Source: a bacterium (GTDB taxonomy: Bacteria > Pseudomonadota > Alphaproteobacteria > Acetobacterales > Acetobacteraceae). Taken from it: a DNA stretch of 64,000 nt. Below the pieces are notes generated by a model. It did not search any database and was not told the origin of the DNA. It was given only the letters and a program-made list of their open reading frames with translations. The position numbers and the translations under genes were made by a program. Shown here one piece after another: positions 44,869 through 59,180 of the stretch; the stretch's first letter is position 1; the number at the start of each line of letters is the position of its first letter. Location: positions 186,001-250,000 of the forward strand of contig JAMFRO010000002.1 in NCBI GenBank assembly GCA_026224825.1, given 5' to 3'.

Positions 44869-45279
44869 TTAAGTCTGGCTTAACGGCTCCGCGGAAATGA
44901 TCACCTGCGCATAAGCATACGGATATTCATCAGTCAGCGATAAAAACACCCGCGCCACATGCCCCGCAGGCGTAATGGCCTCCAACCGCGCCAACGCCCC
45001 CCCATGCAGAGACAACGTCGGCTGCCCGCTGGGCAAATTCGTCACCCGCAAATCCGACAAAAACACCCCATCCCGAAACCCCGTGCCCAACGCCTTCGCA
45101 CAAGCCTCCTTAGCCGCAAAACGCTTGGCATAACTGGAAGCCTCCTGCCCCACCCTACGCTCCGCCCGCGCCCGCTCCCCCTCCGAAAACACCCGCTCCG
45201 TAAACCGCCCCCCATGCCGCGCCAACACCGCCTCAACACGGCGAATATCGCAAATGTCGGAACCGAGCCCAAGGATCAT
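44869..45279 (-). CDS. acpS: Holo-[acyl-carrier-protein] synthase
   Basis: A 136-residue phosphopantetheinyl transferase that activates acyl carrier protein. The motifs [15 protein letters not shown] (Asp8) and [16 protein letters not shown] (Glu58) hold the Mg and CoA-binding residues. In many alphaproteobacteria it lies in a pdxJ-acpS-lepB run; here it stands apart from lepB, downstream of relA/spoT and just after palindromic element C, whose edge touches its start codon. Confidence 0.95.
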
Positions 45280-45499
45280 GATGGGGCCTGAAAAAAGGCC
45301 AGGGCTCTGCCCTGGACCCGCTGGGGCCTGAGACCCCAGACCCCCACTACCTTCGGGTCTTGGAAAGGGATGCCCTCGAGATCACGTAGTGGGAAAGCCC
45401 GCGCAGGGCATCCCTTTCCAAGACCCGGGTGGGATCCAAGGGCCTTTCGGCCCTTGGCGGGTCCAGGGCAGAGCCCTGGCCTTTTTTCAGGCCCCATCA
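45279..45499. repeat. Composite palindromic element C (probable terminator)
   Basis: A palindrome reaching exactly from the relA/spoT stop codon to the acpS start. The outer arms, 45279-45321 and 45457-45499, pair perfectly over 43 bp. The core is a perfect 22-bp stem, 45355-45376 with 45405-45426, of a sequence unlike cores A, B and D. Between lie GGGGCCTGAGACCCC (left) and CCAAGGGCC..GGCCCTTGG (right). Confidence 0.88.
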
Positions 45500-47761
45500 C
45501 GTCTTGGCCCGTTCGACCTGCGCGATATTCGCCGCACCGCGCAGGCCGGCGATGACTTGGTTTAGGTGTCGGGTGTCGCGGATTTCTATGTCGACGATGG
45601 CTTCGAAAAAATCTTGTTGGCGGTGGGTGATTTTCAAATTGGCGATGGCGCCGCCTTGTTGCGAGATGGCGTTGGTGAGGCTGGCCAGCGCCTGCGGGCT
45701 GTTGTTGGCGATGACGCTGACACGGCCTGTAAATTTCGCGTTCTTAGGGTCCATCCGGCCAATGGCACCTATGTCCCAATCCACATCGATAAAGCGTTCC
45801 GGCGTTGCCGCGAAAGTATCGAGCGTGGTGCAGTCTTTTATGTGAATCGTCACACCCTTGCCGGTGGTGACGATGCCGACGATCTTATCGCCCGGCAGCG
45901 GATGGCAGCAGCCGGCGTAATGCACATCCATCCCGGCAACGAGCCCGGTAACGGGCATATTGCTCTCAGCCCGCAATATGGTGCTACGCGGCGAGCGCGC
46001 GGTAGTGCCAGCCCCCATAAAAGCCGGCATCATGCGCGGCGCACCACCACCACGCAGCTCCGGGTAAGCCGCGTACACCACGTCCTTCGGCCCGATGATA
46101 CCGGTGGCAACAGCGACGTAGAGATCCTCCACGCTCGCCTGTTTCAAGGTTTTAGCAACAGGCTCCAGCACTTTTTCAGAACCATCCACACCATCCTGGC
46201 GGAAGGCCTTCGCCAGTAACGACTTGCCGGCGTCACGATGCTGGTCGCGCATCTGCTGCGCCAGAAAGCGGCGAATTCTTGCCCGCGCTTTCCCCGTAAC
46301 AACAAAACGTTCCCAGGCGGGGGAAGGCGTACCGCCACGCGCGGTCAAAATTTCCACCTGGTCGCCGTTCTGCAACTCGTAACGCAGCGGCATCAACCGC
46401 CCATTGATGCGCGCGCCCACACAGGTATCGCCAATCTGGCTATGCACAGCATAGGCAAAATCCACCGAGGTAGCCCCACGCGGCAACTGAATAAGCTGCC
46501 CCTTGGGCGTGAAGCAGAACACCTGGTCCTGATAAAGCTCAAGCTTGGTATTTTCCAAAAACTCATCGGGCGCCGCCGAGTTTTCAAGAATCTCCAGCAA
46601 ATCCTGCACCCAGCGGAATTTCTGCACATCGGATGAGGAAGCATCACCCTGCTTATAAAACCAATGCGCCGCCACACCGTTTTCCGCCACCGCCTGCATC
46701 TCCGGCGTGCGTATCTGAATTTCAATCTTCTGATTGCGCGGCTGCCGTAACGTCACACCCGTATGCAACGACTGATAACCGTTAGCCTTAGGCGTAGAAA
46801 TATAATCCTTAAACCGCCCCGCAATCACCGGATAGGCGGCATGAATCCCCCCCAGCGCCACATAGCAATCCGCCCGCGTCGGCACGAGGATCCGAAACGC
46901 CATAATGTCAGAAAGCTGCTCGAAAGCAACGTTCCGTCTTTGCATCTTCTGCCAGATGGAATAAGGCGATTTCTCGCGCCCCACGATATCCACCGAAGAC
47001 ACCCCAGCCTCAATACAAACCCGCGTCAGCTCCTGACGCACCTCCTCGATGACATCAGCCCCCTGCCCGCGCAAAAAGTTCAACCGCGCCTGGATAGATT
47101 CATAAGCCTCAGGATCAATCTCCGCGAAAGACCTGGTCTGCAGCTCAGTCTTCACCGACTCCATGCCAATGCGCTCAGCCAGAGGCGCATAAATATCCAT
47201 CGTTTCGCGCGCGATACGCTGGCGCTTATGCGCCGCGGAAATCGCCCCAATGGTACGCATATTATGCGTTCGGTCAGCGAGCTTCACGATGAGCACGCGA
47301 ATATCCTTGCTCATCGCCAGCACGAGCTTACGGAAATTCTCCGCCTGCTTGGTACGGTCAGATTGCAGCTCCAGCCGCGTCAGCTTGGTAACGCCATCCA
47401 CCAGCCCGGCCACCTCAGGGCCAAACCGCGCACGCACCTCATTCAGCGTTATCGAGGTATCCTCGACCGTATCATGTAATATGGCGGTAATGATGCTAGC
47501 CGCATCCAACCGGTAGCCAGCCAATATATTGGCCACCTCCAGCGGATGCGTAATATAAGGCTCGCCATTATCCCGCTTCTGCCCCTCATGCGCCTGCAAC
47601 GCAGCGGCATAGGCATCGTCGATAACGGCCAAGTCGGCTTTGGGGTCGTAGCTGGCGATGCGGCTCAGCAGCGGGGCCAGCTCAGGGTGGAACTTAGCAG
47701 CACCCGTGCCCACCCCTTCGGGTGCGTAGGACAGGCTCAACCCACGGCCGCCTGTCCACAT
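45497..47761 (-). CDS. spoT: Bifunctional (p)ppGpp synthetase/hydrolase
   Basis: A 754-residue Rel/Spo homologue governing the stringent response. The HD hydrolase has THPLEVANIL (His72) and ILHDTVEDT (His96-Asp97). The synthetase has VGREKSPYSIWQKM near 262 and FKDYISTPKANGYQSLHTG. TGS (~420-480: VFCFTPKGQLIQLPRGATSV) and a C-terminal ACT domain follow. Both enzymatic halves look intact, as in the single Rel enzyme of alphaproteobacteria. It starts five bases after rpoZ ends, so the two form one operon; the start ATG 47761 is supported by that spacing. Confidence 0.96.
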   Translation of the reverse strand: MWTGGRGLSLSYAPEGVGTGAAKFHPELAPLLSRIASYDPKADLAVIDDAYAAALQAHEGQKRDNGEPYITHPLEVANILAGYRLDAASIITAILHDTVEDTSITLNEVRARFGPEVAGLVDGVTKLTRLELQSDRTKQAENFRKLVLAMSKDIRVLIVKLADRTHNMRTIGAISAAHKRQRIARETMDIYAPLAERIGMESVKTELQTRSFAEIDPEAYESIQARLNFLRGQGADVIEEVRQELTRVCIEAGVSSVDIVGREKSPYSIWQKMQRRNVAFEQLSDIMAFRILVPTRADCYVALGGIHAAYPVIAGRFKDYISTPKANGYQSLHTGVTLRQPRNQKIEIQIRTPEMQAVAENGVAAHWFYKQGDASSSDVQKFRWVQDLLEILENSAAPDEFLENTKLELYQDQVFCFTPKGQLIQLPRGATSVDFAYAVHSQIGDTCVGARINGRLMPLRYELQNGDQVEILTARGGTPSPAWERFVVTGKARARIRRFLAQQMRDQHRDAGKSLLAKAFRQDGVDGSEKVLEPVAKTLKQASVEDLYVAVATGIIGPKDVVYAAYPELRGGGAPRMMPAFMGAGTTARSPRSTILRAESNMPVTGLVAGMDVHYAGCCHPLPGDKIVGIVTTGKGVTIHIKDCTTLDTFAATPERFIDVDWDIGAIGRMDPKNAKFTGRVSVIANNSPQALASLTNAISQQGGAIANLKITHRQQDFFEAIVDIEIRDTRHLNQVIAGLRGAANIAQVERAKT

Positions 47762-48174: not shown

Positions 48175-48248
48175 ACGGCATGCTCCAGAGGCAAAAATTG
48201 AAGGGTTGGCTTACCCCGCGGGCTGGCCAGATGCAAGCCCAGACATGA

Positions 48249-48379
48249 GCGGAGGAGGGTTGAAAAAGGCTGGGGCTCCGCCCCTGACCCCGCTGGGGCC
48301 GTCACGCCTAAGGCGTGCTGCGCACGACGGCCCCGGCGGGTCCAGGGCAGAGCCCTGGCCTTTTTCAACCTTCCTCGGC
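48249..48379. repeat. Composite palindromic element E (no separate core)
   Basis: The shortest member of the family, between folK and rpoZ. The outer arms 48249-48270 and 48358-48379 match at 20 of 22 positions; the right arm holds the folK stop and last codons (GAGGAAGGTTGA), the left an inverted copy. The centre is the hairpin GGGGCCGTCACGCCTAAGGC with its partner, a module also seen in elements B and D. Confidence 0.82.
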
Positions 48380-48865
48380 CCAAGGCTGGAGCGCCTGGGG
48401 CGGCAGTTCGGCCAGGATGGTGGCAACGCTTTGGCGCAGCACAGGGTGGCGCCAGGCCGGGGCCACATCCAGCAGCGGGCGCAACACAAAGGCGCGCAGA
48501 TGCGCCCTCGGGTGCGGCAATATCGGGTCCGGCACGGCGCGGATGGCACCATTAAGGTCAATGATATCAAGGTCCAGCGTCCGCGCGGCATTGCGCGCGC
48601 CGCGCACCCGGCCAAACGCCCGCTCTATCGCCTGCAGCGCGGTCAGCAGCGCCTCGGGCGAAATCTCGCCCTCCAGCCGGATCATGCCGTTGCAGTAATC
48701 GGGCTGGCCGTCACGCGGTATGGGGGCGGTGCGGTACCAGGGCGAGAGGGCCACAAACGCCAGCCCGGCAATGCCGCGTACAGCCTCGGCCGCCGCCACG
48801 CAGGAGTCGAGCGCGGTGGCACCCTCCACCCGCGGCAAATTGGCACCAATGGCAACAAGGATCAT
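48365..48865 (-). CDS. folK: 2-amino-4-hydroxy-6-hydroxymethyldihydropteridine pyrophosphokinase
   Basis: A 166-residue folate enzyme transferring pyrophosphate from ATP to hydroxymethyldihydropterin. SPWYRTAPIPRDGQPDYCNG, then ARTLDLDIIDLNG (metal-binding Asp pair) and LPHPRAHLRAFVLRPL are the HPPK signatures. No folP or folB gene lies beside it. It points toward rpoZ with element E in between. Confidence 0.95.
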   Translation of the reverse strand: MILVAIGANLPRVEGATALDSCVAAAEAVRGIAGLAFVALSPWYRTAPIPRDGQPDYCNGMIRLEGEISPEALLTALQAIERAFGRVRGARNAARTLDLDIIDLNGAIRAVPDPILPHPRAHLRAFVLRPLLDVAPAWRHPVLRQSVATILAELPPQALQPWAEEG

Positions 48866-56222: not shown

Positions 56223-56995
56223 GCAAAAACCTAGCCGTCTGGGAAAAAGCCAAGCGCGAAGGACGCCGTATGACCGTCCTCACCGCCTACGACTTCTGCT
56301 CCGCCACCCTCGCCGAACAAGCAGGGCTGGACTGCCTCCTCGTAGGTGATTCCCTCGGCATGGTCATCGCCGGCGATGCCGATACTTTGCGCGTAAGCCT
56401 GGAACAAATGGAATACCACACCAGCCTCGTCGCCAAAGCCACCACAAAACCCCTCATCATGGCCGACCTGCCCTTCGGCAGCTTCGAGGAATCCCCCGAA
56501 CAAGCCTTCGCCTCATCCGCCCGCCTCCTCAAAGCCGGCGCCGATATCGTCAAACTGGAAGGCGGCGCCATCATGGCCGAAACCATCGCCTTCCTCTCCA
56601 AACGCGCCATCCCCGTCTGCGCCCATATCGGCCTCACCCCCCAACACGTCCGCCAATTCGGCGGCTTCAAACGCCAAGGCAAAACCCAGGAAGCCGCCCA
56701 AATCATCTTCGACGACGCCATCACCCTCCAGGCCGCCGGCGCCCGCATCGTCCTCATGGAAGCCGTCCCATCAGACCTCGCCACCCAAATCACCAAACGC
56801 CTGGAAATCCCCACCATAGGCATAGGCGCCGGACCCAACACAGACGCCCAAGTCCTAGTCTTCCACGACGTCCTAGGCCTCTACCCCAACAAAGCCCCAG
56901 GCTTCGCCAAACAATACCTCAACGGCGCCTCCCTCATCACCACCGCCCTAACCCAATACGCCACCGACATCCGCGAGGGGCACTTCCCGACATAG
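56219..56995 (+). CDS. panB: 3-methyl-2-oxobutanoate hydroxymethyltransferase
   Basis: A 258-residue pantothenate-pathway enzyme. MTVLTAYDFCSATLAEQAGL, LVGDSLGMVIAGDADTLRVS, FGSFEESPEQAFASSARLLK and IGIGAGPNTDAQVLVFHDVL match PanB. ATG 56219 overlaps the pncC stop (ATGA); the longer frame is inside pncC and is rejected. Its TAG stop lies at the edge of palindromic element D. Confidence 0.96.
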   Translation: MSKNLAVWEKAKREGRRMTVLTAYDFCSATLAEQAGLDCLLVGDSLGMVIAGDADTLRVSLEQMEYHTSLVAKATTKPLIMADLPFGSFEESPEQAFASSARLLKAGADIVKLEGGAIMAETIAFLSKRAIPVCAHIGLTPQHVRQFGGFKRQGKTQEAAQIIFDDAITLQAAGARIVLMEAVPSDLATQITKRLEIPTIGIGAGPNTDAQVLVFHDVLGLYPNKAPGFAKQYLNGASLITTALTQYATDIREGHFPT

Positions 56996-57275
56996 GGTTC
57001 GGGGTGGGGTTAGGAAAAAGGCCAAGGCTCCGCCCTGGACCCGCCGGGGCCGTCGTGCGCAGCACGCCTTAGGCGTGACGGCCCCGGACCCCCATTAGCT
57101 TTTAAAGGAAATGAGAGAGGGGGGCATTCGCCTCATGGACCGGTGGGTTTTTCCACGGTCCATGAGGCGAATGCCCCCCTCTCTCATTTCCTTAAGTCTA
57201 GGGGTCTGGGGCCTGTGGCCCCAGCGGGTCCAGGGCAGAGCCCTGGCCTTTTTCCTAACCCCACCCCGAACCCTA
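56993..57275. repeat. Composite palindromic element D (probable bidirectional terminator)
   Basis: A 283-bp palindrome between the convergent panB and ftsH genes, reaching from one TAG stop to the other. The outer arms 56993-57023 and 57245-57275 pair perfectly over 31 bp. The core is a perfect 38-bp stem, 57105-57142 with 57156-57193, of locus-specific sequence (AAGGAAATGAGAGAGGGGGG onward). Between are family modules (GGACCCGCCGGGGCCGTCGT and relatives). Confidence 0.9.
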
Positions 57276-59180
57276 AGCCGGAAGTGCTGCCCCCGGGAAG
57301 TCCGGTTTGGGCGTAGAGGTGGGCACTGACGAGCGGCGGTTGTCGCGCATGGGTTCGTCCACGACTTTGCGGATGATGCGTTCGCCGCGCAGGACCTGGT
57401 TGATTTCGTCGCCCGATAGGGTTTCGTATTCCAGCAGGCCTTGCGCCAGGGCTTCCAAATCGTCGCGGCGCTCGGTGAGTATACGCTTGGCCTCGGCATA
57501 GGCGTGGTCGACGAAGGCGCGAACCTCGTTGTCGATCTCGCGTGCCGTGGCTTCGGAGACGCTCTTGTTCTGCGTCACCGAGTGGCCGAGGAACACTTCC
57601 TGCCCATTATCGCCATAGGAGACCATCCCGAGTTTCTCGGACATACCCCATTCGGTGATCATACGGCGGGCCGAGTCGGTGGCCATTTTAATATCGCCGG
57701 AGGCACCGTTGGAGACCTTATCGGCCCCGAACACCAGCTCCTCGGCGGCGCGCCCGCCCATGGCCATCACCAACTGCTGCAGCAGTTTGATCTTGCTCAC
57801 GGAGTAACGGTCGCCCTCAGGCAAGCTCATCACCATACCCAGCGCCCGGCCACGCGGGATAATGGTGGCCTTATGCACCGGATCGCACTCAGGCAGCGTG
57901 ATCGAGCAGAGCGCATGCCCACCTTCATGGTAAGCCGTCATACGCTTCTCATCATCGGACATAACGAGCGAGCGGCGTTCCGCCCCCATCATCACCTTAT
58001 CCTTAGCGTGTTCGAATTCCGCCATGGCAACCACACGCTTGCCAATCCGCGCGGCAAGCAAAGCGGCCTCGTTAACAAGGTTCGACAAATCCGCACCAGA
58101 GAAGCCAGGCGTACCGCGCGCGATAACCTTCGGATCCACATCGGAAGCCAAAGGCACCTTACGCATATGCACCTTAAGGATTTTCTCACGCCCAACCACA
58201 TCCGGGTTCGGCACCACCACCTGACGGTCAAACCGGCCCGGCCGCAGCAGCGCCGGATCCAGCACATCCGGCCGGTTGGTCGCGGCGATCAGGATGACCC
58301 CCTCATTGGACTCAAACCCGTCCATCTCAACGAGCATCTGGTTCAACGTCTGCTCACGCTCATCATTACCACCGCCAAGCCCAGCACCACGATGCCGCCC
58401 AACCGCGTCAATTTCATCGATGAAGATGATGCAAGGCGCATTCTTCTTGCCCTGCTCAAACATATCACGCACGCGGCTCGCACCAACGCCCACGAACATC
58501 TCCACAAAATCCGAACCGGAAATCGTAAAGAACGGCACATTGGCCTCACCCGCGATGGCACGCGCCAGCAGCGTCTTACCCGTACCCGGCGGCCCAACCA
58601 GCAAGCAGCCCTTGGGGATCTTACCGCCCAGGCGCTGAAACTTCTGCGGATCGCGCAAAAATTCCACAATCTCCTGCAGCTCGCTCTTGGCCTCGTCAAT
58701 CCCGGCGACATCCTCAAACGTCACCCGCCCAGACTTCTCGGTCAGCAACCGCGCCCGGCTCTTGCCAAAGCCCATGGCGCGCCCGCCGCCGCCCTGCATC
58801 TGGCGCATAAAGAAGATCCACACACCCAGAATAAGCAGCATCGGCGCCCATGAGATCAGCGCGCGCACGAAGGGGTTCATCGTATCCCCTTCCGGCTTAG
58901 CCGTCACATTCACATCCGCCGCTTCCAGCTTGGACACGAGATTCGGGTCCTCCGGCGCGTAGGTTTCAAAGCTCTTGCCATCCTTGGTGCTACCGGTGAT
59001 GTCCTGCCCCGTGATGGTAACATTCTGCACCTGGTTGTTGTTCACCTGGTCCAGGAAGCTCGAATAGGCGATCTGCGACGCCCCGGCCGGTGAGCTGGTA
59101 GGCTGGAACACATTGAACAGCAGCACCAGGAACAAGGCTACCACGACCCAAAGTGCGATGTTTCGACCCAGATTATTCAT
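57273..59180 (-). CDS. ftsH: ATP-dependent zinc metalloprotease FtsH
   Basis: A 635-residue membrane AAA+ protease for quality control and regulator turnover. Membrane helices lie at ~7-25 and ~107-125. The Walker A is GPPGTGKT (196-203), with [20 protein letters not shown] and the zinc site AYHEGGHAL near 417. ATG 59180 has GGA seven bases before. The next gene downstream on this strand is 16 kb away past element D; upstream is tilS with a 114-base gap. Confidence 0.97.

Follow-up and report, generated by a model that had tools for sequence, protein, structure and literature searches.

A dispersed multi-hairpin palindrome at the spoT-acpS junction of an Acetobacteraceae genome and reverse-complementary flanks at most of its copies

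Layout of the palindrome between spoT and acpS

The window, as we call the whole 64,000-nucleotide stretch of DNA analysed here, carries a spoT/relA-family gene and the holo-ACP synthase gene acpS on its minus strand, and the space between the stop codon of the former and the start codon of the latter is occupied by a large palindrome. The genes and the parts of the palindrome are listed below, with a strand given for genes and coding stretches.

44869-45279, minus strand: acpS, holo-ACP synthase; ATG start at 45279-45277; TIGR00516 at 92.6 bits (cut-off 59.8)
45239-45259, minus strand: 5' coding stretch of acpS, a mirror of the end of spoT with 13 nt exact
45279-45321: left 43-bp arm, acpS side; 45279-45290 locus-specific, the rest family sequence
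45297-45481: core (~185 bp) of a dispersed multi-hairpin element
45299-45315: small hairpin CCAGGGCTCTGCCCTGG, followed by CCTTTTTT on the minus strand
45321-45339: side hairpin CTGGGGCCTGAGACCCCAG, from a reading of the sequence and the predicted fold
45354-45427: central hairpin, with 23-bp perfect arms at 45354-45376 and 45405-45427
45436-45457: side hairpin CCAAGGGCCTTTCGGCCCTTGG, from a reading of the sequence and the predicted fold
45457-45499: right 43-bp arm, spoT side; 45488-45499 locus-specific
45463-45479: small hairpin CCAGGGCAGAGCCCTGG, followed by CCTTTTTT on the plus strand
45497-47761, minus strand: spoT/relA-family gene; TGA stop at 45499-45497; TIGR00691 at 692.6 bits (cut-off 499.2)
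45514-45534, minus strand: 3' coding stretch of spoT that is mirrored in acpS; AAT codon at 45529-45527, which is GGC in the sister species

A repeat search placed the arms at 45279-45321 and 45457-45499, complementary over 43/43 nt (100%) and separated by a spacer of 135 nt, which bears out the 43-bp perfect arms claimed in the initial annotation. The folding energies were -201.4 kcal/mol for the plus strand (z -16.7) and -206.4 kcal/mol for the transcribed minus strand (z -15.6), and for either strand none of 200 shuffled sequences was as stable. Small GC hairpins close the core on either side (CCAGGGCTCTGCCCTGG and its mirror), with two side hairpins and a central one between them, and because the two halves of the element are mutually complementary, the whole also folds as a single large branched stem. 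Approximately 31 bp of each 43-bp arm are family sequence, while the outer 12 bp (TGATGGGGCCTG) are specific to this locus. The initial annotation had described the TGATGGGGCCTGAAAAAA part as unique. This holds for TGATGGGGCCTG (45279-45290 and its mirror), which was not seen in the flanks of other copies among those listed (60 of 77 flank pairs), but the A-run beside GG, with its mirror, is family sequence that is common to 45 of the 49 own-genome copies.

A family of dispersed elements

The palindrome between spoT and acpS belongs to a family of multi-hairpin palindromic elements that is dispersed in the genome. With a 236-bp query, at least 87 matches were obtained in the genome of the window (G000) from the 40 of 191 candidates that were scored, a number in which many palindromic copies are counted both ways; the longest same-orientation matches to the core were 78-89% identical. 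With no more than 3 mismatches allowed, a 21-bp arm core was matched 60 times in forward and 59 times in reverse orientation in the same genome, and the reversed pattern used as a control gave 0. Part of these 119 arm matches provided 30 loci, which 40 further stretches extended to L001-L070. From these, 48 paired copies were retained, and together with the spoT/acpS copy (L071) they make up the 49 copies considered below; arms without a partner or with over 8 mismatches were excluded, as were copies lying too close to a contig end. When at most 2 mismatches were allowed, the arm core was matched in 11 of 61 genomes, all from the same genus, with 55+52 matches in G000, 33+29 in a second genome (G014) and 1 to 6 in the other nine. 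An exact 29-mer occurred in at least 56 stretches of public genomes, and the matches listed were from Acetobacteraceae or Rhodospirillales, including Acidocella, Acidiphilium, Rhodopila and Acidisphaera; the element family occurs in acidophilic Acetobacteraceae. A plasmid collection yielded one partial match, on a Rhodovastum plasmid (25% of the query, 83.6% identity). No Rfam family scored above its gathering threshold in the 64-kb window. At the element, 12 sub-threshold matches were seen with E up to 1, the lowest E being 3.1e-05 (Dictyoglomi-1, 30.9 bits for a threshold of 150), and since no Rfam score reached threshold, a known RNA family was ruled out as the identity of the element.

Across copies, the inverted ends of the core are constant (GGCCAGGG) and the outer arms are locus-specific. 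The central hairpin varies, and a comparison of 69 rows (copies from G000, G014, G045 and G033, two of them entered twice) showed that in 62 of them the stem is perfect over 20 bp or more (median 23 bp). The central stems differ between species but are perfect in each: at one site with a copy in both G000 (L005) and G014 (L337), the perfect central stems are 35 and 33 bp long and have different sequences. The window contains two further copies:

48239-48389: second, shorter copy, flanked by folK and rpoZ, with a right arm that extends into the folK end
56987-57281: third copy, with 65-bp arms (92% complementary); its neighbours are an FtsH-type (peptidase M41) gene and a gene convergent to it

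The folK/rpoZ copy has a single inner hairpin, of the type GGGGCCGTCACGCC..., that is also present within the copy at 56987-57281, and from this recurrence modules seem to have been exchanged between element copies. In the copy at 56987-57281 the arms extend to both stop codons, and its 38-bp perfect central hairpin is unlike that of the spoT/acpS copy. At an insertion site shared by G000 (L045) and G014 (L323) the order of the core modules is reversed between the two genomes, as though the segment enclosed by the arms had been flipped. In other species of the genus, by-eye reading also found multi-hairpin palindromes of similar layout and different sequence at the ends of argJ, aroB and ftsH (L215, L254, L266, L267 and L269), which suggests a wider superfamily. 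The names of the argJ, aroB, FtsH-type, serA-type and nitronate monooxygenase genes are from Pfam.

A lineage-specific insertion at a compact junction

The spoT and acpS genes overlap or are separated by at most 21 nt in 31 of 33 relatives from the same genus. All 17 members of a first set had the ATGA overlap or a gap of at most 14 nt, as counted from the last aligned spoT codon. Among 16 further relatives, 14 had an overlap or at most 21 nt, G040 had 91 nt of other sequence, and G045 had an element (232 nt). The G040 junction (L301) contains a small hairpin of its own and is a second palindromic case at this site. The insertion is lineage-specific, in that G045, the sister species, was the only one of the 33 relatives with the element at spoT/acpS, and it was located at the same point. 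G045 is also the closest relative by SpoT identity (94%), and G033 (90%) has a junction without the element. Most simply, there would have been a single insertion before the window species and G045 diverged from each other, so that we take the two insertions to be of probable shared ancestry. The G000 and G045 elements are, on the other hand, identical at only 161 of 244 columns and have different outer arms, so that one element may since have been replaced, or elements may have inserted here twice. At this one locus a possible duplication of 4-5 bp (TGAT/ATGAT) was seen. A regulatory palindrome dedicated to spoT and acpS was ruled out: the palindrome is one of many copies in the genome, most relatives are without the element, and the junction is compact in nearly all relatives compared.

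Gene context and terminator-like features

Both neighbours were called for 46 of the own-genome copies (the other 3 of the 49 were without one called neighbour), and the genes on either side of these are convergent in 27, tandem in 19 and divergent in 0. The background of gene pairs in the window was 5 convergent, 43 tandem and 6 divergent. Neighbours were taken from a simple codon-usage caller in which acpS was uncalled, so that the downstream neighbour of the window copy is the next gene, still in tandem. In 17 of the 27 convergent copies, the distances from the two stop codons to the element agree within 2 nt, compared to a mean of 4.6 when the distances were re-paired (0/10000 reached 17). 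At spoT/acpS, each strand has a terminator-like GC hairpin followed by T6, giving 2 terminator-like sites versus 0.8 (sd 0.9) in shuffled sequences. Since CCT6 follows each end hairpin on the outward strand, there is a terminator-like site in both directions, and the element looks like a bidirectional intrinsic terminator, a putative function read from these sequence features.

Flanks that mirror each other

Past the A-run common to the copies, flank sequences vary between copies, yet each flank matches its own partner in reverse complement. The anchored flank score for the 46 copies was 20.0 for true pairs versus 5.9 for mixed pairs, and 0 of 5000 permutations reached the true mean. The score was above the 95% null in 34 of the 46 copies, and 12 showed no excess; two doubtful pairings (L017 and L053) were retained among the 46. 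A similar result was obtained with G014, where loci were drawn from 30 of 58 matches and 14 different paired copies had complete flanks (18.8 versus 4.9, 0/5000, with 8 of 14 above the 95% null). Many outer arms share a loose G-rich family consensus (like TGAGGGCGGGGGTGTTCCACGG), and part of the flank pairing is therefore not local copying.

The mirroring often takes in the last codons and the stop of the upstream gene. When only coding sequence was scored, the 27 convergent copies gave 3.41 versus 0.63 (0/5000), with 12 of them above the 95% null. For tandem copies, coding sequence beyond the upstream stop was compared with its mirror on the start side, in 18 of the 19 copies (L053 was dropped, as its gene call overlaps the element). 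Here the score was 8.53 versus 0.70 for mixed pairs (largest 6.5; 0/5000), and 16 of 18 copies were above the 95th percentile of 3.0, in a test that takes the far-side position from the self alignment and so favours true pairs. Ten convergent pairs free of the element had no excess of coding mirroring (0.50 versus 0.73). The clearest mirrored case is L049, with 26/26 coding bases and, along the arm in full, 60/64 columns. The G000 coding mirror scores at aroB (9.5) and ftsH (9.0) were no higher than the relatives' own (up to 10.0 and 10.5; cross-genome 95th percentiles 10.2 and 10.5), and the comparison at argJ covered the 2 genomes with both neighbours. At L318/L112, two nitronate-monooxygenase-like gene ends face each other across an element, and an inverted self-match that includes the element spans 505 alignment columns at 82% and reaches the contig end. 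We set this match aside because it stops at the contig end; it may be an assembly artefact.

Polarised changes at single loci

Alignments of single loci (gene ends of relatives, spoT/acpS, serA and L030) were read by eye. In spoT, a codon that is GGC in G045 is AAT in G000 (Gly to Asn), which amounts to three adjacent changes, and all but one of the other codons among the last eleven are identical between the two. The AAT codon gives G000 spoT a 13-nt exact inverted match to GATATTCGC in acpS, a sequence that is also present in the acpS of G045; the longest inverted match between spoT and acpS in 17 relatives was 7 nt. Downstream of serA, G033 reads CTTGCC-TTGTCC-GTGGCC and G000 reads CTTGCC-AGGTTA-GTGGCC. 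The AGGTTA stretch mirrors the serA end of G000 itself with one mismatch in 15, as read by eye and polarised against G033 only, and the inverted score at serA was 17.5 in G000 versus at most 11.0 in relatives (28 of 29 scorable). At both spoT and serA, clustered changes copy a nearby source in reverse complement, which is the pattern by which template-switch mutation is recognised. At L030, 15 nt behind the stop of the left-hand gene are an exact mirror of the final codons of the right-hand gene, which can be recognised in G014; the same site in G014 has a different terminator-like hairpin, without the element or the mirrored codons. G000 spoT also fits the acpS of other genomes (up to 17.0) better than its own acpS (14.5), so some of the complementarity between spoT and acpS is older than the insertion.

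A possible origin of the mirrored flanks, and alternatives

We consider it probable that an element of nested palindromes inserted at the compact spoT/acpS junction and that its flanks were rewritten by hairpin-primed template switching. The element would have entered an overlapping (ATGA) or near-touching stop and start in the ancestor of G000 and G045, as a string of hairpins whose halves can pair as a large stem and whose A-runs and T-runs give it the look of a two-way terminator. This large hairpin would join the flanks and prime template switching in replication, and one flank would be copied onto the other as its reverse complement. Such copying could perfect the arms, make them locus-specific and overwrite gene ends. 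At spoT/acpS, the two arms do match over their outer 12 bp, and one spoT codon now mirrors acpS. Template switching as the cause of the mirrored flanks is what we infer from the sequence comparisons.

Selection on RNA structure, for termination or for the stability of mRNA ends, could also pair the flanks through ordinary compensatory mutations and with no special mutational process. The distribution of 27 convergent, 19 tandem and 0 divergent copies, as for 3'-end elements, would agree with this, as would the terminator-like hairpins on both strands. We nevertheless regard it as unlikely, because tandem copies mirror the upstream coding end and its stop on the far side, for which a terminator has no need (26/26 in L049; 16/18 above the 95% null), because the changes at spoT and serA are clustered, and because length differences are mirrored across both arms in L005/L337 and L045/L323, as read by eye. 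A preference of the element for pre-existing hairpins, such as old terminators, would make the outer locus-specific stem a target rather than a product. It fits the stop distances that agree within 2 nt in 17/27 convergent copies, the other hairpins seen by eye at the same gene ends in several relatives, and the small hairpin within the 91-nt G040 junction. It is quite improbable given that the mirrored segments contain coding sequence and that in 31/33 relatives the spoT/acpS junction could not accommodate a hairpin beyond 21 nt; this lack of room rules out insertion into an old hairpin as the sole cause.

An element moved in trans by some transposase, as MITEs are, with outer ends that merely vary, would account for the many copies, the species-specific abundance, the constant inverted core ends (GGCCAGGG) and the possible TGAT/ATGAT duplication at spoT/acpS. 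It would leave the mirrored coding sequence unexplained, however, and the one transposase family searched for, Y1 (PF01797), had no match in G000, so that we consider such an origin very improbable. That the mirrored flanks are inverted chimeras from assembly or amplification seems extremely improbable. Many copies do lie at contig ends, and the inverted self-match at L318/L112 reaches one, but many mirrored flanks are imperfect (e.g. 60/64 and 64/78) and continue into different genes on either side, mirrored flanks are also present in G014, and the sister species G045 has the element at the same spoT/acpS site.

Expected consequences for acpS

In the predicted minimum-energy RNA the acpS AUG is paired, with probabilities of 0.999, 0.998 and 0.994. 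The partner of its A is the U of the spoT stop UGA, a register that is predicted for G045 as well, although its arms differ from those of G000. No alternative ATG, GTG or TTG start for acpS was present upstream in frame, and the sole Shine-Dalgarno-like bases that we saw on reading the sequence are AGG at 45287-45289, within the arm. A scan for sigma-70 promoter-like sites, which misses other promoter types, found none in 45150-45650. With the AUG paired, the AGG within the arm and no promoter-like site, the insertion should either separate acpS from spoT or re-couple it, and acpS initiation would be altered. The acpS gene is essential in bacteria, and as two species carry the element at this site, acpS must somehow be expressed. 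The initial annotation had suggested that the palindrome terminates spoT and sequesters acpS. The terminator-like hairpins with T6 and the in silico pairing of the AUG (>0.97) are in line with that suggestion, and a regulatory role over acpS is structurally plausible, but the notion of a dedicated device does not hold. One could also imagine that the palindrome bridges translation: the stem base would set the spoT stop against the acpS start, ribosomes would restart across the 220-nt folded insert in replacement of the ATGA overlap, and template switching would maintain the register. We judge this model, which builds on the predicted fold, to be distinctly unlikely.

Relation to known systems

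MITEs are short, non-coding and multi-copy, with inverted ends. The element is likewise short, non-coding and present in many copies; the ends of its core are constant and inverted, its outer arms are locus-specific, and the duplication at spoT/acpS is a candidate target-site duplication. Clusters of hairpins are reportedly intrinsic terminators, and the element likewise has several neighbouring hairpins past a stop codon; unlike in such clusters, these hairpins are parts of one repeated element that is palindromic overall. Another comparison is with REP, BIME and REPIN sequences and GTAG- or CGTC-tagged repeats, which PMC3733652 describes as units of 20-40 bp that are often accompanied by RAYT transposases; CGTC repeats are reported there to be missing in Acetobacteraceae. 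The elements share with these repeats a dispersed, intergenic and palindromic nature and a location near gene 3' ends, for the most part where the neighbouring genes are convergent or co-directional (PMC3733652), but they differ in being about 180-230 bp long and multi-hairpin. By eye, no constant GTAG or CGTC tag was found beside the A-run among the flank pairs listed (60 of 77). Y1 transposases (RAYT, PF01797) had no match in G000, an incomplete draft assembly (94%), or in G014; one of 12 genomes has such a gene, and controls were found in 5 of 14. On the lack of a Y1 transposase match in these assemblies, a RAYT/REP origin was ruled out.

The proposed rewriting of flanks has its closest parallel in template switching during DNA replication, for which PMC8794818 gives clustered changes that copy nearby sequence in reverse complement as the pattern. 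As in template-switch or quasipalindrome correction, such copying would make or perfect hairpin stems by clustered changes (PMC8794818). In contrast to the template switching described there, it would here go with a repeat that is dispersed over many loci and, bridging a hairpin of ~220 nt, would extend tens of bases into the adjoining genes. We file the element as a REP-like dispersed palindrome coupled with template-switch mutation. A word-matched search of the open PMC literature returned no recognised description of the element or of mirrored gene ends at such repeats.

If the proposed mechanism is correct, an ordinary-looking intergenic repeat would be a hotspot at which neighbouring gene ends are turned into mirror images of each other, with an amino-acid replacement in SpoT among the results. 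The copies would then offer natural, replicated cases for the study of template switching and of the origin of perfect hairpins, and covariation at such elements need not imply selection on RNA structure. It would also raise the question of how acpS is expressed downstream of a predicted terminator. Apart from these considerations, copies of the element are located at or near the ends of G000 contigs C3, C18, C22, C24, C26, C33, C36, C39, C42, C58, C98 and C99 (starts), and given this location the element is probably a major cause of the fragmentation of the G000 assembly.
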